Below are positions 1 through 36,824 of a stretch of 39,518 nucleotides of DNA, piece by piece. Source of the DNA: a virus. Position 1 is the stretch's first letter. Each line of letters opens with the position of its first letter. The notes beneath the pieces are model-generated. The model saw only the letters and a program-made list of their open reading frames with translations. It was not told where the DNA came from and did not search any database. A program made the position numbers and the translations under genes. The stretch is from IMG/VR virus record IMGVR_UViG_3300037421_000015, positions 1-39,518 of that record. The stretch is one strand, 5' to 3'.

Positions 1-127
1 CGGGCGCTCGGGGACATCTCCGAGGGATACCAGACCTCGGGCGCGCTCCAGTCGAATATTTACTCCTGGCTGTTCGACCGGCCCACTTGGGAGTACAACA
101 AGCTGTCCGACACCGACAAGCAGTTCG
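1..127. repeat. Contig-end overlap, copy 1 (identical to 39392-39518)
   Basis: The first 127 bases are identical, base for base, to the last 127 bases of the window. The copy lies inside an open reading frame that continues without a break when the two ends are joined. An exact 127-base overlap is the size expected from a k=127 de Bruijn assembly of a circular or circularly permuted molecule. It is therefore most likely an assembly overlap and not a biological terminal repeat. Confidence 0.95.
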
Positions 128-3100
128 TCGCCAAGGTGTTCGACACCACCAACCTGACCGAGGGGGATTCTGTCCGTAAGGCGCTCGCGGATCCCGTCGT
201 GTCGCCGGCGGTCAAACAGGTCATCAAGAGTTGGATGAACGGCCCGCTCCGCTTCGCCAAGGAGGAGGAGCTGTTCCAGGGCAACATCCGACCCGTCCAC
301 AGTCTCAGTGGCGACGTCGGGATGTGGGCACCGGCCGGCAGGAACGCCAAGAAGGTGCTCCAGTTGGCCCAACGGCGCCGTAATGCCGAGCGGGCGGCGG
401 CAACGTCTCTCGACGGGCTCGAGCACCACGGCGCCCGTCTGGAGGCCCTCGATGGGATGCTCGCCCAGGCGTCGACCGATTTCAAGGACAGGACACTCGC
501 GGCTCGCCAGCAGGTTTTCAACGATCCGGCCCTCCAACGTCCGCTGACCCGGGATCTCGCCCAGCCCGGCCGTCTGGTGAAGAAGGGCGTCATCAGCCGC
601 CAGGAGCAGCTTCACAGCGTCGTGGGCGAGGGTGGGCTGGCCGATCAGTTCATGGCCCAGGTGGCCAACCGGGATCCCGACCAGATCGGGGAGCTCGCCA
701 AGGCCATGCGCGAACGGCTCTCGGCGTGGGGTGCCAAGTCGGTCGACGCCGCCGAGCACCCAGCTCTCGTTGCTCTCCGTGAGGCCGCGGTGGCGTTCGA
801 GGGGTGGGCCAAGGCGTACAAGGCTGAGGCCAAGGCGATTGACGAGGCGATCCACGGGACCGAGAAGGCCCAGCGCCATTTCCTCCAAGAGGACTTGGCG
901 CACCGTGCTCAAGGGCGAACGATCCTGAAAGACCGCCATACCCGCGAGCGTGACGAACTCCTCGGCAGATACCAGCAAGGCAAGCGGATCCGTGCCGTCA
1001 ATCTCGCCCGCACAACCAGGACCGCCACCGAGACGGTGGCGATTCAGGAACGCTTCTTGATCGACCAGGCCGAGAACGCGGCCCAGCGTGTCACCAACAA
1101 GGTGCTCGATACACAGATCATGCCGAAGCTCAACCGGGACATCCGTGATTTCAAGCGGCGGGCGGCGGCCGAGATCAAGGAGGCCACCAAGGCCAAGGCG
1201 GCGGCCGACACGCTGGCCTACCGGACCTTCGAGCGCGACCGGGCGCGTCTGGCCAAGAAGCACGGTGCCGAGGTCAAGCTCCACGACAAGCAGACTCGGA
1301 TCCGCAAGGAGGGGATGGGCCAGGCCCTCGCCGACGTGACTCGTCTCGGCCAAGCCGTGCGTGACTTCCATGAGGCCGTAGCCGACAACCCGGCCGACCA
1401 GTACCGCGACGCGTTCAACTCACTGGTACAGAAGCACATCTTGGAGATGGAGGACACCGCCGCGCTGACTATCGCCACGGACAAGTACCTGACGGACAAG
1501 CCGGGCATGACGGACAAGCGGCTCGCTCAGATTCGCAGTGACCCCCAGGTGATCGCCGAGCTCATCCAGACCCATTTCCACGAGATAATGAAACAACCCG
1601 ACCTCGACCCCGAACTCGCGGCCGAGGCCCAGGCGCAGTACGAGTCGTTCGTCTACGACGCCAAGGAGCAACTCAAGATCCTCATTGGCCAAGGGTTCCG
1701 GGTCGAGTACATTCCCCACGCCACGACCTTTGACGAGCGGCTCGGCCGGGACTCACTGGCTCCGCTCATCGGACGGGGCATCCCCAAGCCCGACATGGCC
1801 AAGGAGAAGGAGTGGAATCTCACTCCGCACAAGAACGACTTTGCGTTGGGCATCAACAAGGCCGTCGTCCAGGCCCTCCAGCGCGATGCGACGATCCACA
1901 TGGTCGAGCACTACATCCGGCCGATGGCGGTCACGCAGAAGGAGCTCAACGATTTCTTGTGGGTGTTCCAGCACCCCGAGCTACGGCTGGCCGGCGAGAA
2001 CATTCCCCAGCGTCTCGTTAACCTGACCCATGAGGATCTCGGCCTGGTGGCGTGGAACCCGGGCCGCATGTTCGAGTTCAGCCTGCCTCGGTGGAACAAG
2101 GAAGGTCAGCTCTACCTACCCAAGCCGATCGTCAACGCGCTCGAGCAGATGGAACGGGGCCGGCGCAGGAGCCTGTTGGCCAAGTCCAACCGACTGTTCC
2201 GCTACTCCATTCTCGGACTCTCACCGCGCTACACCGCGCACGTCGTCTTTGGCGGGACCATGATGCTCGCGCTGCGGTCGAACCCTCTGGTGTTCACGAT
2301 GATCCCTGCCGCGGCCCGGGCGTTGCGCGACGGCACGCTTCCCCAGGGTGTCGGCGGGCATCTGTCCGAACTCGGGTTCGAGGACCCGATCGGGATGGTG
2401 AACCACCAAGCCGGTAAGGACATGCACAGCCTGGCCGTGGCCGAGCACGTCGAGCAGGTCCAGAAGGTCAAGATGGCCGCGGCCAAGCCGGTCCACATCC
2501 TGCGCGCCCTGGCCGACATCAACTTCCGGTTCACGCACTACGTCCGCGACCTCCAGGCGTCCCTCGCCTACCTTGACGGCGCGGCCAAGGTCGACCGACG
2601 TGCGGGCAAGGTGACCATCGAGGATCCCGAGACGGGCCGCGAGATCAGCGTCTCGTCCGAGCGGGCGGTCAAAGAAGGCATCCACCATGTTCAAGAAGTG
2701 TTCGGCAACCTGAACCGGATGTCACCGCTCGAGCGGTCCATCGCCCAGTCGATCATGCCGTTCTACGGATGGCAGAAGCACATCTTGGGCTATGTCCTGT
2801 CGTTCCCCTTCGACCACCCGTACCGGGCGCTGGTGCTTTCCCAGTTGGCGTTCAACGCTTCCCAGCAGGTCCCGCTGGGCTGGCCCATCAGGATCCAGTT
2901 TCTCTACTTCCTCGGCTCGCCCGACGCCCAGGGCAATGTGAACGCCATCGACCTGCGTTCGCTCGACCCGTTCCGTGACGTGGCCAACTACGGGACGCTC
3001 ACGGGGTTCTTCGAGGCGCTCAACCCGGCGCTCACCGCCATTCCGTCGATGCGTTACCCGCAGTTCTCCTACGGGGATTCGCAGCTCTACCCGGGCGTCA

Positions 3101-3558
3101 CCTACAACGCCTTCTACGGCATCCAAACGACGACGGGGGGCGGGTCGTGGATCAATGCCCTCGAGCAGTTCGTCCCCCAGGTGGCCGCGGTGCGCTCGGC
3201 CGCCCAGGCGGCAGGCGGCTACCGGACCGAATGGCAGACCAACCGGGCGTCGGCCATCAAGTCGCTCCTCTCCTCGCTCAACATCCCGTTCGTCAACCCT
3301 CCCGTCAATCTCAAGCAGGTCGCGGCCAAGGACCAGAACGCCCGGTTCGAGACGGCCAAGGCGGCGGCGCAGACCGCGTTCCAGAGCGGGGACTTCTCGG
3401 GCCTGTCTGGATACAAGAGCGTCCCCAACCCGCTGAACACTGCATACGAGATCACGCCGGCCCAACTCCAAGCCCTCTACAACCAGGCCCTACAGGCCAA
3501 TCCGGGGGTCGCTCCGATCGAGTCCCTGCTGCCGCCACCGACGCCCTACGGCTACTGA
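1..3558 (+). CDS. Giant virion/ejection-type protein, C-terminal 1,185 residues (gene begins at 38594)
   Basis: This is the 3' part of a gene that starts with GTG at 38594. Joined through the 127-base overlap it encodes 1,451 residues with no stop. The first part visible here is long, charged and Lys/Ala/Glu-rich, and probably helical or coiled coil up to about position 1700. A hydrophobic segment follows near 2200-2300 (YTAHVVFGG... and MMLALRSNPLVFTMIP). Near 2720-2800 there is an aromatic stretch, PLERSIAQSIMPFYGWQKH, of a type I associate with large phage proteins that are injected or line the virion. It follows two Gln/Ala-rich genes that come after the adaptor gene, the place where podoviruses encode internal virion (ejection) proteins. 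No enzymatic motif was recognised. A tape-measure-like or polyvalent injected protein is the alternative. The role is inferred; the frame is certain. Confidence 0.8.
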   Translation, partial: RALGDISEGYQTSGALQSNIYSWLFDRPTWEYNKLSDTDKQFVAKVFDTTNLTEGDSVRKALADPVVSPAVKQVIKSWMNGPLRFAKEEELFQGNIRPVHSLSGDVGMWAPAGRNAKKVLQLAQRRRNAERAAATSLDGLEHHGARLEALDGMLAQASTDFKDRTLAARQQVFNDPALQRPLTRDLAQPGRLVKKGVISRQEQLHSVVGEGGLADQFMAQVANRDPDQIGELAKAMRERLSAWGAKSVDAAEHPALVALREAAVAFEGWAKAYKAEAKAIDEAIHGTEKAQRHFLQEDLAHRAQGRTILKDRHTRERDELLGRYQQGKRIRAVNLARTTRTATETVAIQERFLIDQAENAAQRVTNKVLDTQIMPKLNRDIRDFKRRAAAEIKEATKAKAAADTLAYRTFERDRARLAKKHGAEVKLHDKQTRIRKEGMGQALADVTRLGQAVRDFHEAVADNPADQYRDAFNSLVQKHILEMEDTAALTIATDKYLTDKPGMTDKRLAQIRSDPQVIAELIQTHFHEIMKQPDLDPELAAEAQAQYESFVYDAKEQLKILIGQGFRVEYIPHATTFDERLGRDSLAPLIGRGIPKPDMAKEKEWNLTPHKNDFALGINKAVVQALQRDATIHMVEHYIRPMAVTQKELNDFLWVFQHPELRLAGENIPQRLVNLTHEDLGLVAWNPGRMFEFSLPRWNKEGQLYLPKPIVNALEQMERGRRRSLLAKSNRLFRYSILGLSPRYTAHVVFGGTMMLALRSNPLVFTMIPAAARALRDGTLPQGVGGHLSELGFEDPIGMVNHQAGKDMHSLAVAEHVEQVQKVKMAAAKPVHILRALADINFRFTHYVRDLQASLAYLDGAAKVDRRAGKVTIEDPETGREISVSSERAVKEGIHHVQEVFGNLNRMSPLERSIAQSIMPFYGWQKHILGYVLSFPFDHPYRALVLSQLAFNASQQVPLGWPIRIQFLYFLGSPDAQGNVNAIDLRSLDPFRDVANYGTLTGFFEALNPALTAIPSMRYPQFSYGDSQLYPGVTYNAFYGIQTTTGGGSWINALEQFVPQVAAVRSAAQAAGGYRTEWQTNRASAIKSLLSSLNIPFVNPPVNLKQVAAKDQNARFETAKAAAQTAFQSGDFSGLSGYKSVPNPLNTAYEITPAQLQALYNQALQANPGVAPIESLLPPPTPYGY

Positions 3559-3561
3559 CCC

Positions 3562-3590
3562 TTGCCGCGTATGCGGCGCAGGTGTAAACA
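3562..3590 (+). promoter_or_regulatory. Leaderless promoter for the RHH gene
   Basis: A -35 hexamer TTGCCG (3562-3567) is followed by 17 bp and a -10-like TAAACA (3585-3590). Six bases later comes the ATG of the next gene, so the expected transcription start falls at or next to the start codon. There is no Shine-Dalgarno sequence at the usual distance. The same geometry recurs before 4336, 16471 and 27769. The last base of the -10 is A instead of T, which makes this the weakest -10 of the four. Confidence 0.5.
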
Positions 3591-3596
3591 GAGCGT

Positions 3597-3839
3597 ATGG
3601 GAACAGAAGCAAGACGACGGTATACGTTCAAGGACGTCCCGGGTCCATCGGTCCCACTCAGCTTTAGAGTCTCCGAGTCGGCGGCCATGTTGTTGAATGA
3701 TCGGGTGGCCAAGCTCAAGGCGGCCGGCGAGCTCGAGAGCCGCAGCGATGCCCTGTCGGACGCCCTGGTGACCTGGCTGATGATCGAGGAATGGAAGGAG
3801 TCTCAGAACGGTGCCGCGGTGGCCCGACGAGCCGATTGA
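3597..3839 (+). CDS. Ribbon-helix-helix (CopG/Arc-like) DNA-binding protein, 80 aa
   Basis: The protein has a short beta-like segment VPLSFRVSES at about residues 19-28. Two predicted helices separated by SRSDALSDAL follow, the usual pattern of ribbon-helix-helix repressors, which bind operators as dimers through the strand. The length is typical of the family. It opens a transcription unit at a leaderless promoter directly after the giant virion gene and overlaps the next gene by 29 bases. It could be a regulator of the fibre/lysis operon that follows or of its own promoter; that is inference. RHH proteins are short and diverge quickly, so a non-regulatory role is possible. Confidence 0.5.
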   Translation: MGTEARRRYTFKDVPGPSVPLSFRVSESAAMLLNDRVAKLKAAGELESRSDALSDALVTWLMIEEWKESQNGAAVARRAD

Positions 3840-4326
3840 GACGGGACGCCTGGACGAGCCCAAGTTCGTCCATTTCGACCCGATGAAACGCCATTGGCGG
3901 CCACCTCCACGGCCTTCGCCCTGGAAACGCCATTTCGAGCTCGGCCGTATACACCCCGGCCAGTGGATGCTGGTGTCGGAGATCAAGAAGGGTGGACCCC
4001 GAGCCCGGCAGGCCAGGATGCAGAGCGACCGGAACTCGATCGAGAGTTACGTCGAGCGGTATTGGCCCCTAGAGCGCTGGCAGCTCCGCACGGTCACCAT
4101 TGCCGGGACGTGGTGCGACAAGGAGCTCTACATGCGGTTCCTGGGCGAACTGACCCCCGAGGAGGACGCCCTCGACCGCAAGCAACGCCGGGAGGACTAC
4201 CAGGCCCGTCTGGCCAAGGCCGCTGAAAACAAGCGCAGGCGTGCTCAGGAGGCCCGGGACAAGGCCGCCCTGGAAGAAGCCGAGGCCCAGGTCAGAATCC
4301 GTGGCAGGAGGAGGCCAGGGGGATAG
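3811..4326 (+). CDS. Hypothetical basic protein, 171 aa
   Basis: I do not recognise this protein. The GTG start at 3811 overlaps the RHH gene; the first in-frame ATG is at 3883, so the N-terminus is uncertain. The middle has aromatic and proline-rich stretches (RHWRPPPRPSPWKRHF). The C-terminal third (from about residue 115) is highly charged, Lys/Arg/Glu/Ala-rich and probably one long helix ending in an Arg/Gly tail. That composition suits a nucleic-acid or virion-associated protein but does not identify it. It is the last gene before a second leaderless promoter, which lies inside its 3' end. Confidence 0.5.
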   Translation: MPRWPDEPIETGRLDEPKFVHFDPMKRHWRPPPRPSPWKRHFELGRIHPGQWMLVSEIKKGGPRARQARMQSDRNSIESYVERYWPLERWQLRTVTIAGTWCDKELYMRFLGELTPEEDALDRKQRREDYQARLAKAAENKRRRAQEARDKAALEEAEAQVRIRGRRRPGG

Positions 4327-4329
4327 CAT
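4301..4329 (+). promoter_or_regulatory. Leaderless promoter for the small beta-protein gene at 4336
   Basis: GTGGCA (4301-4306) is followed by 17 bp and TAGCAT (4324-4329), a TAnnnT -10. Six bases later comes the ATG at 4336. The purine-rich AGGAGGAGG at 4306-4314 is too far upstream to act as a ribosome binding site for that ATG. The promoter overlaps the end of the preceding coding region. It is one of four promoters with identical spacing in this genome. Confidence 0.55.
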
Positions 4330-4335
4330 CCCCGC

Positions 4336-4692
4336 ATGGCTCAGACCACCACGACGGTTGCCGTTGGGACCGTCTCCCCGGCCCTGCTCTGGCAGACCTC
4401 CACGGGCGTATCCCCTGATCCGAAAACCACCGCAGCGGGCAACGCCACGGCGCAGATCTTCCGAGCCGGCACGTTCAACGACCCGGTTCAGGTCACGATT
4501 CAGAACACCGATGCGACCAATCCGGTCTACCTCGGCGGGTCGACTGTGGCGGCGTCGGGGGCGACACTCGGCGAGAAGTTGCTCGCCGGCATCACCAAGC
4601 AGCTCCCGGCCGTCATCGGCAACGATTCCATGTACGCCATCTCGACGGGTGGCACCGTCAACGTGGTCGTCCGCATCAGCCCGGGAAACTAG
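4336..4692 (+). CDS. Small beta-rich virion-like protein, 118 aa
   Basis: This is a Thr/Ala/Val-rich protein with few charges and a pattern of short strands, typical of phage fibre-base or decoration proteins. Residues about 50-115 (VTIQNTDATNPVYLGGSTV..., then LAGIT and MYAISTGGTVNVVVR) line up with the protein encoded at 5085-5375 (VKNEDASVVVWIGGPNV..., then YAFAVGTPIVSVL). The two therefore look like paralogs of one small beta-sandwich fold. It is the first gene after a leaderless promoter and abuts the membrane-protein gene at 4693. The exact role is unknown; its place in front of the tail fibres suggests a surface structural protein. Confidence 0.55.
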   Translation: MAQTTTTVAVGTVSPALLWQTSTGVSPDPKTTAAGNATAQIFRAGTFNDPVQVTIQNTDATNPVYLGGSTVAASGATLGEKLLAGITKQLPAVIGNDSMYAISTGGTVNVVVRISPGN

Positions 4693-5085
4693 ATGTACTA
4701 CCGCCTCGGTGCTCTGGTCGCCGCAGTGCTCGGCCTTGTCCCGCTCGAGCCCACGGCCGTCCGGGTCGGCCTTGTCGCGGGCGCCGCTCTTGTCATCGCT
4801 GCTGACCGACTGGCCGAGCGTCGTCCTGACGAGGTCCATGTCGACGTTGAAGCCCCTGTTCCGGCAGTGTCTATCAACGTCGAGGCTCCGGCCACCCCCA
4901 AACCCGTCGTTGTCCTACGCGAACCTGAGCCCGAACCCGAGCCCGTTGCCATTGAACCCGAGCCCGAACCTGAACCCGTGCCTCTTGTCGTCAACGAGGC
5001 TGTGATGACCAAGATTGCGCCGGTCGGCCTGGTCCAGCCTCGGCTCGGCGTCGGGGCGTTCACACCACCGAGGATGCGGGTCTAG
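4693..5085 (+). CDS. Membrane-anchored protein with Glu-Pro repeats, 130 aa
   Basis: The N-terminus carries two short hydrophobic stretches (about residues 5-18 and 24-38) that could form one or two membrane helices. A charged region follows, then a Glu-Pro repeat block at about residues 76-98 (EPEPEPEP, twice), and a short hydrophobic tail. Extended EP/KP repeats act as rigid spacers in envelope proteins such as TonB; no TonB C-terminal domain is visible here. The gene starts directly after the stop at 4690-4692 and its TAG overlaps the next GTG. It could be a virion, lysis or superinfection protein. I do not assign a function. Confidence 0.5.
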   Translation: MYYRLGALVAAVLGLVPLEPTAVRVGLVAGAALVIAADRLAERRPDEVHVDVEAPVPAVSINVEAPATPKPVVVLREPEPEPEPVAIEPEPEPEPVPLVVNEAVMTKIAPVGLVQPRLGVGAFTPPRMRV

Positions 5086-5375
5086 TGGCACTCAAGGCGG
5101 TTCAGATCACCCTCGTCACCTCGACAGCCACTCCGCTGCTTACCAAGGCCCTGTTCCCCAACGTCGTCGGCGCGGCGGCCGACCCCATCCCGCTCATCGT
5201 CAAGAACGAGGACGCGTCGGTCGTTGTGTGGATCGGCGGGCCCAATGTCGACGCCACGCACGGCCAATCCCTCGTCGCGGGCGCCTCGATCCCGATGGCG
5301 CTCTATTCCAACGACGTTCCCTACGCCTTCGCGGTGGGCACCCCGATCGTCTCGGTACTCGCTGGGAGGCAGTAG
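5085..5375 (+). CDS. Small beta-rich virion-like protein, 96 aa, paralog of 4336
   Basis: The start is GTG overlapping the previous TAG by one base. The sequence is almost all strands and turns (PLIVKNEDASVVVWIGG, AGASIPMALYSNDVPYAFAV) and aligns by eye with the second half of the protein at 4336-4692. Similar short proteins are often encoded just before phage fibre genes. It overlaps the next GTG start by one base, so it is translated as part of the fibre operon. The relationship is seen in the sequence; the virion role is inferred. Confidence 0.55.
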   Translation: MALKAVQITLVTSTATPLLTKALFPNVVGAAADPIPLIVKNEDASVVVWIGGPNVDATHGQSLVAGASIPMALYSNDVPYAFAVGTPIVSVLAGRQ

Positions 5376-6310
5376 TGCCACTTGGAACCACCTGGGGCGA
5401 GCTGGGCACACCTTCGCAGCCCAGCAGTGGCGGCGGTGGAGGATCAGGGACGGTCACCAGCGTTTCGGTTGTCACGGCCAATGGACTCGCGGGCACGGTC
5501 GCCAACCCAACGACGACCCCGGCCATCACGTTGTCGACCACCGTTACGGGCGTCCTCAAAGGCAACGGCACGACCATCTCGGCGGCGGTGCCCGGAACCG
5601 ATTATCTCACCGTCCTCACCGGCGATGGTACGACATCAGGCAACGTCTTTACATTGGCGAACACCGCGGTTACGCCGGGTTCGTACACGAACGCCAATAT
5701 CACAGTTGATTCCAAGGGACGGATCACGGCTGCTTCTAACGGCACTGGTGGGACCGTCACGACGGTGTCGGTGGTGTCGGCGAACGGTTTTGCCGGCACC
5801 GTGGCGAACCCGACGACAACGCCCGCGATAACCATTAGCACCACGGTCAACGCTCCTGTTCTGGCGGGCAATGGCACGGCCATCTCAGCAGCAACCACGA
5901 CGGGCACAGGTTCAACGGTTGTCCTCAGTGCCTCACCGGCTCTCACCGGCACGCCGACAGCACCGACAGCGGCGGCTGGGGACGACAGCACGACCATTGC
6001 CACCACCGCGTTCGTGGAAGCGGCCATCGACGCGTCCTCTCCCTCCAATGTCACCGCGCAGTCGGCCAACTACTCGGCCAACCCCGGGGACATCGTGCTC
6101 TGTACGGCGGGCGCAGGAGGCTTTACGGTCACTCTGCCGGCGTCCACAATCAACAACCAAGTCACGGTCAAGAAGGTGGACAGCGGCTTGGGGACTATCA
6201 CCATCTCCCCGACGTCGGGCACTATCGACGGCCAGGCCACTAAAGCCATCAATACTCAGTACGCCTCATTCACTATGGTTGCTGACGGGACCAACTGGAA
6301 CGTGATATGA
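5375..6310 (+). CDS. Tail fibre protein, 311 aa
   Basis: After a short head (GTTWGELG) and a poly-Gly linker, the protein has two copies of a fibre repeat with the pattern TVTSVSVVTANGLAGTVAN, then PTTTPAIT, LSTTV and a GNGTTIS turn, at about residues 27-75 and 123-165. This Thr/Gly/Val-rich design is common in phage tail fibres and forms intertwined trimers. The last 85 residues (from about QSANYSANPGD) form a beta domain that recurs at the N-terminus of the next protein. The GTG start overlaps the previous TAG. It overlaps the next gene by four bases (ATGA). A receptor-binding or fibre-shaft role is likely. Confidence 0.75.
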   Translation: MPLGTTWGELGTPSQPSSGGGGGSGTVTSVSVVTANGLAGTVANPTTTPAITLSTTVTGVLKGNGTTISAAVPGTDYLTVLTGDGTTSGNVFTLANTAVTPGSYTNANITVDSKGRITAASNGTGGTVTTVSVVSANGFAGTVANPTTTPAITISTTVNAPVLAGNGTAISAATTTGTGSTVVLSASPALTGTPTAPTAAAGDDSTTIATTAFVEAAIDASSPSNVTAQSANYSANPGDIVLCTAGAGGFTVTLPASTINNQVTVKKVDSGLGTITISPTSGTIDGQATKAINTQYASFTMVADGTNWNVI

Positions 6311-7878
6311 GTGCCACTCCTGCCGCGTTCAACGTGGTTGCCAAGTCGGCCAACTACACGGCCGCTCCGAGTGACATCGTCTTGGGGACGGCGGGAGCGG
6401 GTGGGTTTACACTCACTCTCCCGGCAGTAGCGATCGGTCGCCAGGTTCTCGTCACCAAGGTAGACAGCGCGGCGGGCACCATCACCGTGACGCCCGCGTC
6501 AGGGACGATCAATGGTGCGGCTACCTACGCGATGGTGGTCCAGTACGACCAACTGTGGCTCATCTCAGACGGGACCAACTGGGCCAACTTCACCGCTGTT
6601 GTCGGCACTGTCAACCTCGAAGGGATCATCCGGGCCAATGCGTTGAACCAGCTCACGACGGCCACGGGCAACTACTCGATGGGCACGAACCGCCTGACGT
6701 CTCTGCAATCTGGCATTTTGTCCACCGACGCCGCCAACCTCGGCCAGCTCGGTTCTGACTCCCAACGTGCGTTCGTCGTCTCGGGTTGCGTGTGGACCGC
6801 CGATGCGGTCGGGTCGACCCGTAACGCGTCGATGACTGCGGGCACGGTGATGATCCTCGGGATCAAGCTCACTGTCGCCGCGGTCACTGCTCGGGCCTTC
6901 ACCGCCTCGACGGACACCTACATTGACGCGACCGACAACGGGGACGGCACGGCGCTGCTCACCTACACCACGGTCACCAACAACTCACTGTCGCCGGCAC
7001 TCGCTCTGAGCGGCACGATGCTCAACACCATCAGAATCGGCATCATCGCGACAGGAGCGTCAAACATCCAGTTGACGACCAACATCTACCAGGGCAGCCC
7101 GAACGCGGGCACCAACGGAGTCGCACTCGGGTCATCGACTGTGGCGGCCGGATCGAACGGTCAGGCGATCAACGCCCTCACTTCGAGCCAACTGGCCGTC
7201 GCGTCGGGGGCATCGTTCTCCACGGGCGGTGGATGGATCCAGGTCGCGCACTCGGGCGGTCAGACCTATACGTTGCAGTACACGGGTGTCTCGGGCAACA
7301 ACCTGACAGGGATCACGGCGGGCAACGTGATATCTGGATTGCCCACTAACACCGTCTCGACGGGTGACACGGTGACCCAGGTGTTCCAGGTCGGGACTGG
7401 ATCGGGTGGGCCGGTAGGTGTCACGGATTTCCTCGGCAACCTCATCTATCCGACGCGTCCCTATCCGTCCATGATCGGGTATGCCTCGTTCCAAAACGCT
7501 TTTACCACGACCGCGACGTCGAACACTCCTCTGCCTGGTGCTATCGCACCCTTCGTCATTCCTGCCGGCCCGGCGCGGCCCATTCTGGTTACTTTCACCG
7601 GCACCTACTTTGCCTCGTCCGCTGTTGCCGGCACGGCATTGCAAGCGGGCGCCTATGTCGGTAACGGACTCGGGAGTGGTAACTCGATCAGCCCCATCGT
7701 CCAGGACAAGGTGGCCGTCTCGAGCGATGGCGTCAACCTGAGTCTCATTGCGGCCGGCATTGCTCCGCAGACGCCGGGGAGTTACAACTCTCAGATGCTG
7801 GTATCACAAGGCGCTGCGGGCACTCTGACCGTAGGTGTCGTGTACGGACTCACCACGATCGTTGTCGAACTCATATGA
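6307..7878 (+). CDS. Tail fibre / receptor-binding protein, 523 aa
   Basis: Residues about 12-98 repeat the end domain of the preceding fibre (NVVAKSANYTAAPSDIV..., SDGTNWANF). A short helical linker with LGSDSQRAF follows, and then a long beta-rich distal part. Around residues 275-355 there is a fibre module beginning STVAAGSNGQAI and containing FSTGGGWIQVAHSGGQ and LQYTGVSGNNLTGI. A related copy sits inside the alpha/beta hydrolase encoded at 8352. The C-terminal region (PYPSMIGYASFQNAF onward) resembles a globular tip. Composition and neighbours support a fibre; the receptor is unknown. Its stop overlaps the methyltransferase start by four bases. Confidence 0.7.
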   Translation: MSATPAAFNVVAKSANYTAAPSDIVLGTAGAGGFTLTLPAVAIGRQVLVTKVDSAAGTITVTPASGTINGAATYAMVVQYDQLWLISDGTNWANFTAVVGTVNLEGIIRANALNQLTTATGNYSMGTNRLTSLQSGILSTDAANLGQLGSDSQRAFVVSGCVWTADAVGSTRNASMTAGTVMILGIKLTVAAVTARAFTASTDTYIDATDNGDGTALLTYTTVTNNSLSPALALSGTMLNTIRIGIIATGASNIQLTTNIYQGSPNAGTNGVALGSSTVAAGSNGQAINALTSSQLAVASGASFSTGGGWIQVAHSGGQTYTLQYTGVSGNNLTGITAGNVISGLPTNTVSTGDTVTQVFQVGTGSGGPVGVTDFLGNLIYPTRPYPSMIGYASFQNAFTTTATSNTPLPGAIAPFVIPAGPARPILVTFTGTYFASSAVAGTALQAGAYVGNGLGSGNSISPIVQDKVAVSSDGVNLSLIAAGIAPQTPGSYNSQMLVSQGAAGTLTVGVVYGLTTIVVELI

Positions 7879-8351
7879 TCTTCGGTCACAGTCCCGAGAA
7901 CGCCGCCGTCATCGAGGCAGAGCCCGAGGTCGTCGGCCTGATCCGTACCCTGGTCCGCGCCATGCGACCCCGCTACGTCATCGAGACGGGCTGCTACCAC
8001 GGCACCACGTCACGGGCCATCGGCGAAGCACTGACCATCGGCAACCTCGACACAATGGACGTCGACTCCTACAGCGTCGAACGAGCTCACCAGGCCACCC
8101 GTGGCCTACCTGTCAAGGTTCACCACTGCTCGTCCCTCGACTTCATTCCCGACCGCCCTATCGACTTCATGTTCTTGGACTCGGGCATCGGTGACCTACG
8201 AGCTCGGGAGCTGGCGCACTTCTACCTGTGGACGCACCGCGACACCGTCGTCGCCATGCACGACTCTCGCGACCTGCCCTGGCCGCTCGGGTGGCGCCAC
8301 GTCAACCTCCCGACGTCACGGGGTCTACTCCTTCTCCAACGGGACGAATAA
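7875..8351 (+). CDS. SAM-dependent methyltransferase (class I, Methyltransf_24-like), 158 aa
   Basis: Motif I is YVIETGCYHGTTS at about residues 35-47 (the ExGxxxG SAM-binding loop). An acidic end of strand 2 (TMDVDSY) follows, then a motif-IV-like FMFLDSG and a late TVVAMHDS. These match class I methyltransferases related to small-molecule and sugar-modifying enzymes, not DNA methylases. At 158 residues it is a minimal Rossmann fold without an obvious target-recognition domain. The gene is coupled to the fibre gene upstream (ATGA overlap) and abuts the hydrolase gene. This context suggests modification of a surface glycan or of the virion. The substrate is unknown. Confidence 0.65.
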   Translation: MIFGHSPENAAVIEAEPEVVGLIRTLVRAMRPRYVIETGCYHGTTSRAIGEALTIGNLDTMDVDSYSVERAHQATRGLPVKVHHCSSLDFIPDRPIDFMFLDSGIGDLRARELAHFYLWTHRDTVVAMHDSRDLPWPLGWRHVNLPTSRGLLLLQRDE

Positions 8352-9389
8352 GTGCCGACGCATTGCTCAGGCCCGTTCGGCACGGGCCAACTCGTCGTAC
8401 CTGCGGTTCCCGGCAGCTTCGGCATCCTCGACCCCGGAGCGGGCAATCGGCGTGGCATCATCGTCGTCCTTCACGGCGGGATCGGCACAAGTCCGGGCAC
8501 TGTCCCCCAACCGACACCATCGGACACGCTCTCGCTCGACCTCCAAGGAGACGGCTGGATCGTCTTTCAACCAGCAGCCCCCGAGGACTATGTGTTTACT
8601 CCCGGCCCGAGCTATATGGGCGCTCTTTACAACGATGTCTCCAACGACGCCGGGCACGGGTCGCGCTACCAGGCCACTTACCTCGAGCAGTGGGATCATC
8701 TCATCGACTATTTCCGTCGCACTTACGGCGGTACGCGCCCTGTCGGTGTGTGGGGTGGTTCTGACGGGGGGTGGAAGGCACTGGTCACCGCAGTCAACCG
8801 CTCGGTCATCGGCTATCTTTCAGCCATCCCCGCGTGTCTGTGGGAGAACATCGGGCCGATATGGACCGGCAACGGCGTGTTCTCGAACCTGTCATGGACC
8901 GGCATGGACCTCAACGCGACGTACATGAACGCGGTGACCGTGCCGGGCATCATCCAGTACGGCACCTCTGACAACGCGGTCGGCTGGGCCGCGACGACAG
9001 TTGCCGCAGGATCCAACGGAGTCGCCGTCTCGACCTTCGCTGGCGCGGGAACCCTCAATGTGGCCGCATCGACCAACATGGTCGTCGGCCCGCGGGTACA
9101 GGTGACCGGGCTGACTGGTGGCACGGGGTCCGCAATCATCGCCTTCACCGGGACGGGCTCGGGCACGCTGACAGGTTGTACGACCGTCGCCGGCTCGGGC
9201 ACGTTGAACACCAACAACCCCGTCACGCAGAACTGGACCGACCAGATCATCACCAACGCCGTCAATGCCGGCCAGCCCGTCACTCGACGGGGCGTGGCCC
9301 AAGGTCATGTGTTCACGTCGACTGATGCCGCAGCGTTCTTCTCCTGGGTCCAGGCCAACCTCGACCCGTCCTACCCGGTAAGTTTCTGA
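8352..9389 (+). CDS. Alpha/beta hydrolase (esterase/PHB-depolymerase-like) with inserted fibre module, 345 aa
   Basis: The oxyanion-type HGG motif is at residues 41-43 (IIVVLHGG). The nucleophile elbow GGSDG is at 135-139 (Ser137). Asp207 lies in IQYGTSD and His319 in VAQGHVF; these are the expected catalytic triad. Between Asp and His, residues about 214-292 form a beta module (TVAAGSNGVAVS, VQVTGLTGG, FTGTGSGTLTGC) like one in the upstream tail fibre. The enzyme part resembles polysaccharide or polyester esterases, so de-esterification of host surface glycan is a reasonable guess. The GTG start follows the methyltransferase stop directly. A stand-alone lysis esterase is the alternative role. 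Confidence 0.65.
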   Translation: MPTHCSGPFGTGQLVVPAVPGSFGILDPGAGNRRGIIVVLHGGIGTSPGTVPQPTPSDTLSLDLQGDGWIVFQPAAPEDYVFTPGPSYMGALYNDVSNDAGHGSRYQATYLEQWDHLIDYFRRTYGGTRPVGVWGGSDGGWKALVTAVNRSVIGYLSAIPACLWENIGPIWTGNGVFSNLSWTGMDLNATYMNAVTVPGIIQYGTSDNAVGWAATTVAAGSNGVAVSTFAGAGTLNVAASTNMVVGPRVQVTGLTGGTGSAIIAFTGTGSGTLTGCTTVAGSGTLNTNNPVTQNWTDQIITNAVNAGQPVTRRGVAQGHVFTSTDAAAFFSWVQANLDPSYPVSF

Positions 9390-9390
9390 C

Positions 9391-10170
9391 ATGGCCATCG
9401 GCCGTATTGTCGACGTCTCCTCGAACGACCACAACAATCTTCCCCCCGGTGTCGGGCCGCCGATCGACTGGGTGGCGGCTAAGAACAACGGAGTCACAAC
9501 AGCCATCGTCAAGGCCACACAGGGGACGAGCTACCTGAACCCCTGGTACGCCACCGACGCTCTCCAAGCTCGAGCGGCAGGCATCGACGTGCTCGCCTAC
9601 CACTTCTGTGACTTCACCAATGCCGGCGCCGAGGCGCAATGGTTCATGTCCAACGCGGGCTCGCTGGCCGCGGTGGGCGACTTCGAGACCTCGACCAACG
9701 TGGCATGGATGCGAACGTTCCTCCAGGCCCTCGGGCGGCCCTGGGATCAGTGCGTGGGCTACGGCTCGGCGTCATCCTTCCGTAGCGTCTACCAGCAGAT
9801 CCCGGCCCTGCCGTGGGTGGCCGCCTACGGCCAGGGCTACCCCGGCTGGGGGGTCATGTGGCAGTTCACCGACAACGCTCAGATACCGGGCATCCCGACC
9901 GCGGTGGACGAGTCGAGCTGGCACGGCTCTCAGATCCAATACGACACGCTTTTCGGGGTCTACGCTCCACCAGGACCGATCGAGGAGGATGACATGGCAT
10001 CGCTCTACGTCACCAACAGCGCCGGCACCGGGTTCGTCGTCGCCCAGGATCTCTCGTCCAAGACGGGCATCGTGGACGGGGCCGACGCCGCCGCCCTGAT
10101 CGCCACCGGGCTCTACACGGCGGTCAAGATGACTGACGCGCAGATCAACGCCATCCCGAACGCCCACTAG
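9391..10170 (+). CDS. Endolysin, GH25 muramidase, 259 aa
   Basis: Family GH25 hallmarks are clear: DVS at residues 8-10 on strand 1, AIVKATQGTSYLNP, YHFCDF near 70-75, and the catalytic DFE at 97-99. VMWQFTDN and the active-site-end GIPTAVDESSWHGS follow near 160-190. GH25 enzymes cleave the MurNAc-GlcNAc bond of peptidoglycan. After a linker (GPIEEDD) the last 58 residues form a separate small domain, perhaps for wall binding. That domain has its own strong ribosome binding site and ATG in frame (9994). No signal peptide is seen, so release by the membrane proteins downstream is expected. The gene directly precedes the holin-like genes. Confidence 0.88.
   Translation: MAIGRIVDVSSNDHNNLPPGVGPPIDWVAAKNNGVTTAIVKATQGTSYLNPWYATDALQARAAGIDVLAYHFCDFTNAGAEAQWFMSNAGSLAAVGDFETSTNVAWMRTFLQALGRPWDQCVGYGSASSFRSVYQQIPALPWVAAYGQGYPGWGVMWQFTDNAQIPGIPTAVDESSWHGSQIQYDTLFGVYAPPGPIEEDDMASLYVTNSAGTGFVVAQDLSSKTGIVDGADAAALIATGLYTAVKMTDAQINAIPNAH
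9982..9996 (+). promoter_or_regulatory. Internal ribosome binding site and start codon within the endolysin gene
   Basis: GAGGAGG (9982-9988) lies five bases before an ATG at 9994 that is in the endolysin reading frame. Initiation here would give the 58-residue C-terminal domain alone. Several endolysins are known to make their wall-binding domain separately from an internal start and to assemble with the full-length enzyme. Whether this one does is inference. Confidence 0.55.
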
Positions 10171-10178
10171 GAGGATCC

Positions 10179-10418
10179 ATGAGCTTCAACTTCGACACTC
10201 AGCGTGTCTCGTCCATCGTCCGCCAGGTGCTCGCCGTTTGTGTCTCGATCATCGGCGTTCTCAGCGCCAACGGCACCATCCTCGGCTCGTTGCCGGCGTC
10301 GGTCAAGGCAATCCTGACCGCCTTTGCTCCCGTTCTCCTGGTCATCGAGCACGTCGTCAGCGACCCCTCGACAGGGACTCCCCCGCCACCGCCACCCACC
10401 ATCCCTCCCCGCCCATAA
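10179..10418 (+). CDS. Holin-like membrane protein, 79 aa
   Basis: A strong AGGAGG lies just before the ATG. Two hydrophobic segments are visible (about residues 14-32, VRQVLAVCVSIIGVLSANG, and 40-58, VKAILTAFAPVLLVIEHV). They are followed by an Asp-containing, proline-rich tail (PPPPPPTIPP). A small protein with two membrane helices placed nine bases after the endolysin gene is the classic position of a holin, which would form membrane holes and release the muramidase. No family-specific motif was identified. Confidence 0.65.
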   Translation: MSFNFDTQRVSSIVRQVLAVCVSIIGVLSANGTILGSLPASVKAILTAFAPVLLVIEHVVSDPSTGTPPPPPPTIPPRP

Positions 10419-10428
10419 CCTCACTGTC

Positions 10429-10698
10429 ATGGTCTTGGGGGTGACCACAACCGATCCGATCGCAGATGTCATCTTGGGGGCGGGGTTTGCCCTGACGCTC
10501 TACCTGGCGCTTCGCAACGGCCACAAGACTGACAAAGCGGCCGACAAGGTATCGGACAAGGTGGTGGAGGCAACCGCCAAGGTCGATGTCGTTCACGCCC
10601 TGGTCAACAGTCAGCTCGACCGGGCCATCGACCGCAAGGACGTGGCTGAAAAGCGGACGGCCGTGCTCGAAAAGGAACGCGACCAGCCCAACGGCTAA
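10429..10698 (+). CDS. Small membrane protein, second holin or lysis accessory, 89 aa
   Basis: I placed the start at ATG 10429, ten bases after the holin-like gene. This gives one membrane helix (about residues 9-27, ADVILGAGFALTLYLALRN) followed by a highly charged helical tail (KTDKAADKVSDKVVEATAKV) with coiled-coil character. Single-helix proteins with long charged tails are often the second membrane protein of actinophage lysis cassettes. It could be a holin partner, antiholin or spanin-like element; the sequence alone does not decide. Confidence 0.6.
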   Translation: MVLGVTTTDPIADVILGAGFALTLYLALRNGHKTDKAADKVSDKVVEATAKVDVVHALVNSQLDRAIDRKDVAEKRTAVLEKERDQPNG

Positions 10699-10854: not shown

Positions 10855-11781
10855 GTGAGTATCGAGATATTGGCGGATCTGGACGAGATCCAGCCGTCAT
10901 CGGCCGAATGGCTCAAGCTCCGCAAGCTGGGCATTGGCGGCTCCGACGCCGGGGCCATCTGCGGACTGAACCCACGGCGCACGCCCTACCAGGTATGGGC
11001 CGAGAAGGTCAACCCGTCCGAGCCCGAGGACTACGAATCCGAGCCCCAGCGGTGGGGCAAGCTGCTCGAGGCGCCCGTCCGCACTGAGTTCACCGAGCGC
11101 ACGGGCATCGAGGTCCACCCGTTCCCCCGCATGGTCCGTGACTCCAACCTCCCGTTCATGTTGGGCAACGTGGATGGCCTGACGGGCCCAGCCACCAAGA
11201 TCGACGGCATCTATGAGGGCAAGACCACCCGGTTCGCCGACCAGTGGGCCAAGAACGACGACGGATCGGTCAATGTCCCGTTCCCCGCCCTGATCCAGGG
11301 GATGCACTACCTGGCCGTGTTCGGGCTCGAGCGGGTCCACTTCGCCTGCCTGATCGGCGGCCAGGAGCTCCGCATCGCCGAGGTCGAGCGTAACGATGCC
11401 CTGATTGCCGATCTCATCGAGATCGAGGAGGCGTTCTGGCAACGGGTGATCGACCGCGAGCCGCCCGAGGTGTCGGCCGACGACGTCGGCACCCTCAAGG
11501 CCCGGTGGCAGCCCGAGGTGGGCAAGACGGTCGAGCTCGTCCCGACCTTCGGGGCCGCTCTCAAGGCCCGGGCCAAGCACAAGGCTGGGATCAAGCAGCT
11601 CGAGGAGCGGGTGAACCAGATCGACGCCGAAGTCATGGCCGCGATGGGGGACGCCGAGGAGGCCACGGTCAACGGCCGGGTCGTCGCCACCTGGAAGAAC
11701 CAGACCCGCAAGGGCTACACGGTCGAGGCCAAGACGTTCCGCAAGTTCAGCCCGAAGGAGACGACTGATGACAACGACTGA
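10855..11781 (+). CDS. YqaJ-type phage recombination exonuclease, 308 aa
   Basis: The N-terminus has the family signature IGGSDAGAICGLNPRRTPY (residues about 27-45), then GKLLEAPV with Glu72. Asp107 in LGNVDG and the EGK pair (Glu121, Lys123) complete a PD-(D/E)XK active site, and ALIQGMHYLAVFG is the usual following helix. These enzymes degrade one strand of double-stranded DNA 5' to 3', and the annealing protein loads on the exposed strand. The C-terminal third is a coiled coil followed by a small basic region. AAGGAGG sits four bases before the GTG start. It overlaps the RecT-like gene by 14 bases, the usual exonuclease-annealase pairing. Confidence 0.88.
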   Translation: MSIEILADLDEIQPSSAEWLKLRKLGIGGSDAGAICGLNPRRTPYQVWAEKVNPSEPEDYESEPQRWGKLLEAPVRTEFTERTGIEVHPFPRMVRDSNLPFMLGNVDGLTGPATKIDGIYEGKTTRFADQWAKNDDGSVNVPFPALIQGMHYLAVFGLERVHFACLIGGQELRIAEVERNDALIADLIEIEEAFWQRVIDREPPEVSADDVGTLKARWQPEVGKTVELVPTFGAALKARAKHKAGIKQLEERVNQIDAEVMAAMGDAEEATVNGRVVATWKNQTRKGYTVEAKTFRKFSPKETTDDND

Positions 11782-14523: not shown

Positions 14524-14675
14524 CGCGCTCGACCTCCCCGGCAAATGCGGGCCTTGACTTCACGGGCGATTGCCTGCGTAGCGTCGTGGTCACCTACCGT
14601 CAACGCCATTGCATACATGGACCGTAGGCGATCCACGCTCAAGGCGCCCAAGTTGAGTTGTTCAGTTGTTGTCAT
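14520..14675 (-). CDS. Hypothetical protein, 51 aa
   Basis: ATG 14675 is preceded by AAAGGG nine bases upstream; an in-frame TTG 12 codons earlier lacks a binding site, so I prefer the ATG. The protein is helical (LSVDRLRSMYAMALTVGD, ATQAIAREVKARI) with a basic end. Its stop overlaps the next gene by four bases. The function is unknown. Confidence 0.55.
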   Translation of the reverse strand: MTTTEQLNLGALSVDRLRSMYAMALTVGDHDATQAIAREVKARICRGGRAR

Positions 14676-16435: not shown

Positions 16436-16464
16436 TTGCCGAGCGGGAGCGGGGGGCGTACCGT
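16436..16464 (+). promoter_or_regulatory. Leaderless promoter for the rightward accessory operon
   Basis: TTGCCG (16436-16441), 17 bp, TACCGT (16459-16464), six bases, then ATG 16471. The -10 fits TAnnnT and the -35 is identical to that at 3562. No ribosome binding site is present at a useful distance, so transcription probably starts at the ATG. Confidence 0.6.
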
Positions 16465-16470
16465 GGCCCG

Positions 16471-16671
16471 ATGGGCTACAACCCTTTCGGCAATGCCAAC
16501 AATGCTCTGACCCAGGCCCGCCAGGGAACCAAGATGAACACGGGCCGGGGCGACACGACGCTCTCCAAGCCGACCGGCGGGCTCTACGGGGTGAGCGACT
16601 ACGTCGCACCCAAGCGTGCCAGCGGCCGGGGCCGGCGCAAGATGCAGCGCGGCGGGCGCAAGAGCAGGTAG
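16471..16671 (+). CDS. Small very basic protein, 66 aa
   Basis: The ATG at 16471 lies where the promoter predicts the transcript start. The N-terminus is Asn/Gly-rich (GYNPFGNANNALTQARQG); the C-terminus is strongly basic (KRASGRGRRKMQRGGRKSR). Such tails bind nucleic acid or mark small head-associated phage proteins. It is the first rightward gene of the accessory block. The function is unknown. The upstream in-frame extension toward 16177 runs through the hairpin region and is unlikely to be translated. Confidence 0.6.
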   Translation: MGYNPFGNANNALTQARQGTKMNTGRGDTTLSKPTGGLYGVSDYVAPKRASGRGRRKMQRGGRKSR

Positions 16672-16681
16672 CGTTCGGCGC

Positions 16682-17197
16682 GTGACCCGGCGCCAAGAGC
16701 ATGAGGAGATCGAGATCCTCGAGAACCTCGAAGCCATCGCGGTCGGCCAGTCGATCCTGCTCGAGAGCATCAATGCGAACCTGGCCGCCCTTGTGGCACT
16801 CTTGACGCCACCTGTCGAACAAGCCGTCACAGCCAATCTCTATGTCAATCAAGGAGTTCCAATGCCTGACCTGACCCTCACCTTCGTAGACGCCACCGGC
16901 ACCGCGGCCGCACCGCCCAAGGGGGACGGCACCGGGCTCAACGTCGCCTTCTCGTCTGACGGCACCACGACCGTTGGCGCGGGCGTTGCCTCCGGTGACA
17001 CCGTTGTCGCACCGCTGACTGTTGTCGATGACTCCTCGGTGTCGAACCTGACGGCCGTCGTGTCGAACGTTTCGGGCGCTGTGCTCTTGGACGACGATGG
17101 TGTGACACCGTTCGTCCAGCCGCCTGCCTTCGCCTTCACCGCTCCCGCGCCACCGCCGCCCGCTCAGGCGACCACGGCGACCCTGTCTGTCGCCTAA
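16682..17197 (+). CDS. Coiled coil plus Ig-like beta domain, 171 aa, with internal start
   Basis: From GTG 16682, residues 1-45 are helical with a heptad pattern (EEIEILENLEAIAVGQSILL). From about residue 61 the protein becomes a beta-rich, Asp/Thr/Val domain (DLTLTFVDATGTAAAPP, GLNVAFSSDGTTTVGAG) like phage Ig-like or surface domains, with a Pro-rich end. AAGGAG at 16851-16856 stands five bases before an in-frame ATG at 16862, so the beta domain alone (112 aa) may also be made or may be the true gene. The GTG start has only a weak site. A virion surface role is inferred. Confidence 0.55.
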   Translation: MTRRQEHEEIEILENLEAIAVGQSILLESINANLAALVALLTPPVEQAVTANLYVNQGVPMPDLTLTFVDATGTAAAPPKGDGTGLNVAFSSDGTTTVGAGVASGDTVVAPLTVVDDSSVSNLTAVVSNVSGAVLLDDDGVTPFVQPPAFAFTAPAPPPPAQATTATLSVA

Positions 17198-24676: not shown

Positions 24677-25248
24677 CCTGGGAAGGGCTGAACCCGCCCT
24701 ACGCGACCATCGTGGCCGACCCGCCCTGGATGTATCAGAAGGACCCTGGCGCTAAGAACGAAGGGCAGGGACCAGTCAGTCAAGCGGAATCCTGCTATTC
24801 GACGCTGACGAATGAACAGATTTCGGCGCTGCCGGTGAAGGATCTCGTAGCCGACGCCGGGCACTTATATCTCTGGTTCACGAACCCTGGAATGTTTGGC
24901 GGACGGTTCTCGGACGTGACTCCGAAGGACATTGCAGAGACGTGGGGATTTGAGTTCAAAACCATTCTGACTTGGGTGAAACCGGGTGGCGGTGGCATGG
25001 GGTGGTTCTTTCGGGGCCAGACCGAGCACGTCCTGTTTGCGACCCGCGGCGGTAAGGATGCGGCCATTCCGGCCAATATCCGCGAGCCGAACGTGATTGA
25101 CAGTCGCAAGGCTGGTCACTCACAGAAACCCGGGGCCTTCTTCGATCTTGTGGAACGGGTGAGTCCAGGCCCATACGTAGAACTGTTCGCCCGCCAGCCG
25201 CGCCTCGGTTGGGATCATTGGGGTTTGGGGATCGAAGGGGTAGCCTGA
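24673..25248 (+). CDS. MT-A70-family adenine-N6 DNA methyltransferase, 191 aa
   Basis: DPPW at residues 16-19 (ATIVADPPWMY) is the catalytic motif of MT-A70 and related adenine methyltransferases. LYLWFTNP, the strand ILTWVKPGGGGMGWFFRG and EHVLFATRG follow in the order of that family, with HSQKPGAFFDLVE near the end as the SAM-binding element. Phage members usually methylate adenine in phage DNA to protect it from restriction. It is coupled to the terminase gene (ATGA overlap), so it may act on DNA at packaging time; that is inference. No matching restriction gene is present. Confidence 0.85.
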   Translation: MTWEGLNPPYATIVADPPWMYQKDPGAKNEGQGPVSQAESCYSTLTNEQISALPVKDLVADAGHLYLWFTNPGMFGGRFSDVTPKDIAETWGFEFKTILTWVKPGGGGMGWFFRGQTEHVLFATRGGKDAAIPANIREPNVIDSRKAGHSQKPGAFFDLVERVSPGPYVELFARQPRLGWDHWGLGIEGVA

Positions 25249-25254
25249 CCAGCC

Positions 25255-25629
25255 GTGAAGTACGACTACTCCTGTCCGGCCTGCGGGGTCATTCGTGACG
25301 GCGTGCCCCTGGACAAGATCCAGTGCCGGTGTGGGCTGACCGCCAAGCGGGTGCGTGAGTTTGCCGTGAACACGACCAGCCTGAAATCCCGCGACCGATG
25401 GGACCCCGTCGTCGGCGCCTACGTCCGCAACGATCGTGAGTTCAACGAGTTGCTCAAGGCTGGCCAGGCCGCCCAGGAGGCCGAGCTCGGGATGCCGGTC
25501 CCGTTGGAGAAGGTCGACGCCCGCGATACCGAGGGCCTGGCCGAGCTCCACGGCCATAGCGTCGACCACCGCCTTGAGGTCAAGGAGAACGTGCAGAAGC
25601 TCGAGCATGACTCGGCGGTGAAAGTCTGA
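25255..25629 (+). CDS. FmdB-like zinc-ribbon protein, 124 aa
   Basis: The GTG at 25255 begins MKYDYSCPACG, and a second pair CRCG follows about 17 residues later; this is the FmdB-type zinc ribbon. The rest is charged and helical (NDREFNELLKAGQAAQEAEL, ELHGHSVDHRLEVKENVQKL). Such proteins occur regularly just before portal genes in actinophages, and their role is not known. Its stop overlaps the next ATG by one base. Confidence 0.65.
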   Translation: MKYDYSCPACGVIRDGVPLDKIQCRCGLTAKRVREFAVNTTSLKSRDRWDPVVGAYVRNDREFNELLKAGQAAQEAELGMPVPLEKVDARDTEGLAELHGHSVDHRLEVKENVQKLEHDSAVKV

Positions 25630-27555: not shown

Positions 27556-27759
27556 ATGCTGGACGATGAAAGAACCATCATCAATGAGTTTGTGGAGTAC
27601 GACGAGCGTGGGCGAGTGAAGCGTCGGGGACACCCGGATCGGGGAGACAATGTGCCTGTGGCCTGGTGCTCTCCGCACAAATGCCACCTAGAGGATTGTT
27701 TTGAACTGCATTATCCCGATGCTCACAGAAAGCGTGACACCTCGGCGTTCATTGAGTAG
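27556..27759 (+). CDS. Hypothetical protein, 67 aa
   Basis: AGGAGAG lies a few bases before ATG 27556. The protein is charged (DERTIINEFVEYDERGRVKR) and has HKCHLEDCFELHYPDAH, whose Cys/His spacing could bind a metal. The leaderless promoter for the next gene lies within its last codons. I do not recognise a family. Confidence 0.55.
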   Translation: MLDDERTIINEFVEYDERGRVKRRGHPDRGDNVPVAWCSPHKCHLEDCFELHYPDAHRKRDTSAFIE

Positions 27760-27762
27760 GCT
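27734..27762 (+). promoter_or_regulatory. Leaderless promoter for the gene at 27769
   Basis: GTGACA (27734-27739; five of six bases of TTGACA), 17 bp, TAGGCT (27757-27762; TAnnnT), six bases, ATG. This is the best match of the four similar promoters, and it lies between the portal and capsid genes. Confidence 0.6.
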
Positions 27763-27768
27763 GCGCGT

Positions 27769-28014
27769 ATGCCACGAATGGAAGATTTCCGCAGCGACAG
27801 GTGCGTCATTGACTACGAGATGTGCACCGAGTCCCGCGGTTCCATCCTGCCTGTCGAGCGCGGCTCGATGATCGGCAAGCACCCAGCCGAGGGAGTGCCG
27901 GGCCAGCCGACAGGCATGGAATCCCGCAACGCCTTTCCGTTGCCCGATTCGATGTTCGACAACAACGGGACCGATTCCGAGCTCCACAGCACCTACCCGC
28001 CCGAGGGGCTCTAG
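27769..28014 (+). CDS. Hypothetical protein, 81 aa
   Basis: The ATG lies where the promoter upstream predicts the transcript start. The sequence is mixed, acidic and Pro/Gly/Ser-rich (CVIDYEMCTESRGSILPVER, PEGL at the end), and probably little structured. Small proteins here in other phages may be head-associated. No function is assigned. Confidence 0.5.
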   Translation: MPRMEDFRSDRCVIDYEMCTESRGSILPVERGSMIGKHPAEGVPGQPTGMESRNAFPLPDSMFDNNGTDSELHSTYPPEGL

Positions 28015-36101: not shown

Positions 36102-36125
36102 GCCGAGGGGAGTAGATTTCCGACC

Positions 36126-36824
36126 ATGACCGTCTCGCTCCTCACCGCCCGCACCGAGGTCCGGTCCCTCTTGGACGAGCCGAATCCCCAGTTCTGGTCC
36201 AACGCTGAGATCAACAGTTGGATCAACCAGGGCACCCAGGACATCGCCCGCCAGGCCCAGGCCCTGTGGATGCAGCTCTCGATCCCCGCCGTCCCGCTCC
36301 AGCAGTTCTACGCCCTGCCGGCCGACTTCCTCGGCGTCCACCGGATCGAGTACCAGCTCTCGAACTCCGACCAGACCTACACCCTGGACTTCCGGGGTAT
36401 CAAGACGATGGACGAGGTATGGGGCATCCTGCACCAACTCCCAGCCGCCTTTCCTCAGGCGTTCTACCTGTGGAACGACAACGGGACCCCGGGCGGAGGG
36501 ATGTACTTCGGGACCTATCCGGTCGTCGGCGACAACGGGCGGTTCAACATCTACTACTACCGCAACGCCATCCCGGCCACGGCCGACGCCCAACTGATCG
36601 ACGTCACCCCGGCCTACGAGGACATCGCGTACGACTACGCGGTGTACAAGGCCAAGCGCAAGGACCGTGACCCGACGTGGCAGGAGGCCAAGGCCCTCTA
36701 CGACGGGAACCTCATGTTCATGTTCAACAAGACGAGCCGGTTCACCGACCAGGGCGACCAGTTCACCTCGGGCGTGCCCAACTGGCCGTTGTATCTCTAC
36801 GCCGACACGAACTCCTGGTACTGA
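36126..36824 (+). CDS. Head-tail adaptor/connector protein, 232 aa
   Basis: The N-terminus VSLLTARTEVRSLLDEPNPQ, followed by FWSNAEINSWINQGTQDIAR, is the usual opening of phage adaptor proteins (SU10/gp6-like, tail-tubular-A type). LPADFLGVHRIEY and the late DIAYDYAVYKAKRKDRDPTW also fit. Such proteins form a ring between portal and nozzle. The gene has only weak start signals: GGGGAG about 13 bases upstream, and a TAGATT seven bases before the ATG without a matching -35. I consider the family assignment good. Confidence 0.75.
   Translation: MTVSLLTARTEVRSLLDEPNPQFWSNAEINSWINQGTQDIARQAQALWMQLSIPAVPLQQFYALPADFLGVHRIEYQLSNSDQTYTLDFRGIKTMDEVWGILHQLPAAFPQAFYLWNDNGTPGGGMYFGTYPVVGDNGRFNIYYYRNAIPATADAQLIDVTPAYEDIAYDYAVYKAKRKDRDPTWQEAKALYDGNLMFMFNKTSRFTDQGDQFTSGVPNWPLYLYADTNSWY

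Follow-up and report, generated by a model that had tools for sequence, protein, structure and literature searches.

Initiation without a leader is well documented for the chromosomes of actinobacteria. In S. coelicolor, whose promoters carry a TANNNT -10 and an NTGACC -35, leaderless messages make up about 21% of the transcripts, AUG accounting for 76.4% (PMC4895711). Leaderless genes are marked by a TA-like signal about 10 bp upstream and exceed 20% in Actinobacteria (PMC3160421), and in mycobacteria a 5'-terminal ATG or GTG is both required and enough (PMC4633059). This last work cites leaderless genes of phages lambda and P2 as known cases, and the literature that we searched yielded only single-gene examples of phage leaderless initiation. 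Here we analysed an IMG/VR virus record of 39,518 bp from an uncultivated bacterial virus (the window, meaning that whole stretch of DNA) and a phage-group set of 29 contigs gathered from the relatives present in IMG/VR (capsid identity 71-97%). The mechanism proposed below is already known from actinobacteria, and those features of the phage sites that can be read from the sequence match the published leaderless promoters of Streptomyces and Mycobacterium: a TANNNT -10, no Shine-Dalgarno site and a predicted start point at the start codon, with a weak NTGAC-like -35 recognisable at a minority of the phage sites. The phage group differs from actinobacterial chromosomes in that 63 of 587 called starts (about 11%, or about one gene in ten) are of this type, against 21-25% of transcripts there, in that about a third of the -10 boxes share bases with the stop codon of the gene before, and in that the sites belong to an uncultivated phage. 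Lambda and P2 likewise have mRNA beginning at the start codon, but as single genes in an enterobacterial host, whereas the phage group, where such mRNA is predicted from sequence, has a recurrent set in several modules and many relatives. A small comparison was made with six known phages, five of them with actinobacterial hosts. Phages phiC31, R4, D29, TripleJ and PA6 are also tailed phages of high-GC Gram-positive hosts, and they lacked a comparable TANNNT-N6-8 peak (0, 0, 0, 3 and 2 starts, respectively); Mx8 had no TANNNT starts at N6-8. What is new is the conserved, gene-specific use of such starts in the phage group, little or absent in the six known phages, and the frequent overlap of stop codon and -10 (20/63).

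An earlier note on this DNA had drawn attention to four starts (3597, 4336, 16471 and 27769) at which a -35, 17 bp, a TA-starting -10 and six bases lead up to the ATG. All four read exactly as it gave them (Table 1), and a close Shine-Dalgarno site is missing at each; the GGAGGAGG ahead of 4336 ends about 20 nt upstream, inside the coding part of the upstream gene. Their -35 elements are above average, which is no surprise given the way the sites were chosen. On the gene strand of the window, TANNNT-N6-ATG occurs four times against 1.1 in dinucleotide shuffles (P 0.015), the four being three of the cited sites plus that of gene 9391, and a loosened form of the note's motif, drawn up after the sites had been seen, occurs four times against 0.025. 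When distances were profiled over 0-24 bases before the called starts (plus 3597 and 27769), TANNNT appeared only at 6, 7 and 8 bases, which is the signature of a -10 box with its start point at the start codon. Beyond the cited four, the window holds five further such sites, before genes 9391 (N6), 10429, 16682 and 36126 (N7) and 25255 (N8). A scan for the sigma-70 consensus (TTGACA/TATAAT) found none of the sites and gave no excess over shuffles, and the E. coli consensus was rejected as a model for them.

Table 1. Predicted leaderless-type sites of the window and three of the genes behind them
Feature	Position	Strand	Description
Promoter of gene 3597 (leaderless-type, weak)	3562..3599	+	TTGCCG (3562-3567), N17, TAAACA (3585-3590), N6, ATG (3597)
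Gene 3597	3597..3839	+	80-aa protein; helix-helix prediction compatible with ribbon-helix-helix regulator
Promoter of gene 4336 (leaderless-type)	4301..4338	+	GTGGCA (4301-4306), N17, TAGCAT (4324-4329), N6, ATG
Gene 4336	4336..4692	+	118-aa conserved phage protein, no assigned function
Site before GH25 endolysin gene 9391	9379..9393	+	TAAGTT-N6-ATG; also in 1/3 relatives (N7)
Site before gene 10429	10416..10431	+	TAACCT-N7-ATG; TAA = stop codon of gene 10179-10418
Promoter of gene 16471 (leaderless-type)	16436..16473	+	TTGCCG, N17, TACCGT (16459-16464), N6, ATG
Site before gene 16682	16669..16684	+	TAGCGT-N7-GTG; TAG = stop codon of gene 16471
Site before gene 25255	25241..25257	+	TAGCCT-N8-GTG; such a box in 3/22 family members
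Promoter of gene 27769 (leaderless-type)	27734..27771	+	GTGACA (27734-27739), N17, TAGGCT (27757-27762), N6, ATG
Gene 27769	27769..28014	+	small conserved protein family, 61-96 aa, motif EMSTxxRGSILPAERG
Site before SU10-type adaptor gene 36126	36113..36128	+	TAGATT-N7-ATG; leaderless-type in 9/13 homologs

The -10/ATG part of this geometry is far beyond chance across the phage group. Gene starts were called with a home-made caller that relied on codon usage only and ignored upstream sequence, so that it could not favour upstream motifs; several leaderless-type starts were misplaced by it. Among the 587 unique starts of the 29 contigs, TANNNT stood at N5, N6, N7, N8 and N9 in 2, 40, 15, 6 and 2 cases, the counts at N6 to N8 comparing with a mean of about 1.9 at any other distance. 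Its occurrence at N6 was the most extreme of 640 tests (XYnnnZ patterns by distances of 0-9), ahead of all Shine-Dalgarno patterns, and, given TA, a T at position 6 was enriched with an odds ratio of 7 (P 8e-18, a value that ignores the relatedness of the contigs, which are a non-independent sample). Without gene calls, TANNNT-Nd-ATG with d = 6, 7 and 8 was found 47, 28 and 14 times on the gene strand versus 5, 9 and 6 times on the other, and the full motif proposed earlier, TTGnC-N17-TAnnnT-N6-ATG, occurred six times on the gene strand of related contigs versus 0.12 at wrong spacers. The idea that spacings of exactly 17 and exactly six are a rule did not hold for the group: in the relatives the ATG follows after 6, 7 or 8 bases and a -35 can seldom be made out, and both values are modal spacings, not strict ones. 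The N7 and N8 spacings (21/63) would let transcription begin 1-2 nt away from the start codon, and the promoters might accordingly have a minimal leader of 1-5 nt, or several start points, and not be strictly leaderless; we think this unlikely in view of the dominance of N6 (40/63), the gap that puts a typical start point on the start codon's first base.

A -35 is enriched but weak, and confined to a minority of the sites. An NTG exactly 17 bp before the -10 was present at 13 of the 63 sites, compared with 0-4 for the other spacers tested (14-21), and it is clear in examples such as TTGACA-N17-TAACCT-N7-ATG (L029:375) and TTGATC-N17-TAGCTT-N7-ATG (L027:1793); at most of the 63 sites no -35 can be recognised. 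Shine-Dalgarno motifs precede 8/63 leaderless-type starts versus 207/524 other starts, and several of the eight are the AGGA within a TAGGAT box itself. As to start codons, 48 of the 63 are ATG (76%, close to the S. coelicolor figure), 15 are GTG and none is TTG, a codon that the caller disfavours (14/524 among the other starts).

In the 20 boxes that overlap a stop codon, the TAG or TAA is that of the called upstream gene; for 14 leaderless-type starts the gap from stop to start is exactly 9 nt, as the geometry demands. TGA cannot supply TA by definition, so its absence is uninformative and it is the pile-up at 9 nt that informs. Four boxes of the window (4336, 10429, 16682 and 27769) take their TA in this way; thus, the TAG at 4324-4326 doubles as the stop codon of ORF 3811-4326, and that of the 27769 box as the stop codon of ORF 27556-27759. 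These four, like the other overlaps, would fit termination-reinitiation, in which the TA boxes are merely the preceding gene's stop codons at a preferred 9-nt spacing and there is no promoter. We regard this as very improbable, since the peak remains without the stop-overlapping boxes (26/11/5 at N6/N7/N8), no stop codon imposes the T at position 6, which is nevertheless strongly enriched at these distances only, and a trace of the -35 is seen at N17. A stop-codon artefact as the full explanation was rejected on the persistence of that peak, but any single one of the four window sites, with its TA supplied by a stop codon, could be a coincidence. Our literature search found no earlier description of a stop-codon/-10 overlap, which is not proof of novelty, and the overlap provides a testable rule for compact genomes.

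To judge from the upstream sequences, the leaderless-type mode is gene-specific and conserved across the phage group. Counted as distinct upstream sequences, leaderless-type sites were present in 11/12 members of the 27769 family, 9/12 of the 36126, 6/7 of the 4336 and 5/9 of the 17317 families, and in 0/20 capsid, 0/21 of the 28430 and 0/18 of the 30967 families, a clustering reached by 0 of 20,000 shuffles. Shine-Dalgarno-like sites precede 23/23 genes of the 28430 family, 19/22 capsid genes and 17/20 of the 30967 family. With all 27769 homologs counted, 12/13 have TANNNT-N6/7, and 6/7 orthologs of 4336 have TANNNT-N6-8; the ortholog count preferred a TANNNT-bearing start within 10 codons where present and leans slightly towards leaderless. 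Several relatives have TANNNT-N6 at the 17317-family gene. Apart from T1, A2 and T6, identity over the upstream columns is only 30-34% for the 27769 (34%), 36126 and 17317 families and 44% for the 4336 family (six members); the aligned members were chosen for TANNNT, so that the invariance of T1, A2 and T6 is by construction and the informative figure is the share of members carrying the box. The orthologs of 3597 were mixed, with TTGCGC-N17-TACACT-N6-ATG in G008, TACGGT-N8-ATG in G018 and an AAGGA Shine-Dalgarno site instead in G001.

These results bear unequally on the individual sites. The leaderless-type assignment is strongly supported for 4336 and 27769 by conservation upstream of their relatives. 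The 16471 site fits the geometry and has no relatives (no homologs were found); together with 10429, for which there is no diverged ortholog, and 16682, it is a candidate with one genome behind it. Sites 9391, 10429, 16682 and 25255 are treated as candidates only, because conservation or relatives are lacking, and the 25255 box is probably weak or incidental. A GGAG stands directly upstream of the 36126 site in the window. The 3597 promoter is weak, its -10 being without the T of TANNNT. Positional enrichment, the scarcity of Shine-Dalgarno sites and conservation in diverged relatives together lend strong support to the predicted leaderless promoters; of the claim that they form a dedicated set, the gene-specific grouping was supported and the membership of 3597 in this genome was not.

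In the window, leaderless-type sites head the stretch to lysis (4336-10418, opened by gene 4336 and ending in lysis genes), the rightward structural arm (16471, the first rightward gene past the leftward control region), the scaffold/capsid stretch (27769, between the portal gene and the scaffold/capsid genes) and the adaptor/tail stretch (36126). The 27769 protein family had no Pfam or PHROG match, and the 3597 protein had no Pfam or PDB sequence match. The model of the latter (pLDDT 64) shows two helices, with ParD antitoxins among the best folds (E 5.7-8.1, not significant), and the RHH regulator proposed earlier is plausible.

We consider it highly probable that the sites act as internal promoters, of the actinobacterial kind served by a housekeeping sigma factor, and give leaderless mRNA from the start codon. 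Points against this reading are the scarcity of recognisable -35 elements, the four window boxes whose TA is that of a stop codon, the missing N6 peak in the one MAG with a close terminase (see below) and the little or no signal in the six known phages. Transcription would start on the first base (A or G) of the start codon, directed by a TANNNT -10 with a weak NTG(AC)-like -35 some 17 bp upstream; the mRNA, beginning with AUG or GUG, would need no Shine-Dalgarno site for its translation in a host tolerating leaderless messages. Since such a gene has no Shine-Dalgarno site and its promoter abuts the start codon, its translation would depend mainly on its own transcripts, with little contribution from read-through mRNA, so that the sites would act as internal promoters setting small gene groups independently; stretches of the structural region could be expressed in this manner. 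Because they stand within the same rightward arrays as Shine-Dalgarno genes, the sites look like ordinary actinobacterial-type internal promoters rather than a phage-specific timing class. A gene-specific, conserved set is also what a dedicated phage-encoded sigma factor or activator would read as a late (or early) class, but we give this little credence: the -10 and -35 conform to an actinobacterial housekeeping consensus of host type, the sites are spread over several modules beside Shine-Dalgarno genes, and no sigma factor was found among the proteins searched, in a search that was not exhaustive. We tentatively suggest that in this lineage leaderless starts, each gated by a promoter, may have become fixed at particular genes that lead modules, in many cases with the upstream stop fused to the -10, which would limit translation to own-promoter transcripts and let modules be set independently in a compact genome. 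A conserved set of this kind would reveal promoter positions in an uncultivated phage from sequence alone, improve start-codon annotation and restrict the possible hosts to lineages proficient at translating leaderless mRNA.

We infer an actinobacterial host, or one from some other lineage with many leaderless genes. In the genome collection, the terminase query gave a single close match (75%), on a 3.4-kb contig in an Acidobacteriaceae MAG, and only distant terminase relatives elsewhere in that phylum; the capsid query had no match among the contigs of the collection. The MAG was rejected as host, as it offers only the 3.4-kb terminase contig, without the capsid and without the N6 peak (125 starts, 163 kb of MAG). 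Megablast of bases 1-25000 against a phage collection gave no DNA match among known phages.

The record carries an exact terminal direct repeat of 127 bp (1-127 and 39392-39518), so that we probably have here the complete genome of a tailed phage, assembled as a circle. ORFs 1-3558 and 38594-39517 are two pieces of a single protein of about 1480 aa (1477 aa in the G001 homolog). The sole leftward gene cluster, at 14200-16000, is the probable control region and includes a possible helix-turn-helix protein (14918-15433). An Rfam search gave no match, and the tRNA-Pro called by ARAGORN at 36894-36971 (minus strand), inside the strongly coding gene 36826-37746 and absent from G001, is probably a false positive. 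A RecT-like annealing protein (11768-13087), beside a RecE/YqaJ exonuclease, contains an AT-hook-like stretch (KRPRGRPRKATTPPKDAPGP...) twice in tandem, against once in the relative G018. Finally, an MT-A70-like methyltransferase gene (24673-25248, identified by its DPPW motif) lies between the terminase and gene 25255; it was present, in a first comparison, only in the window and the near-identical L003, and looks like a recent insertion at that place.
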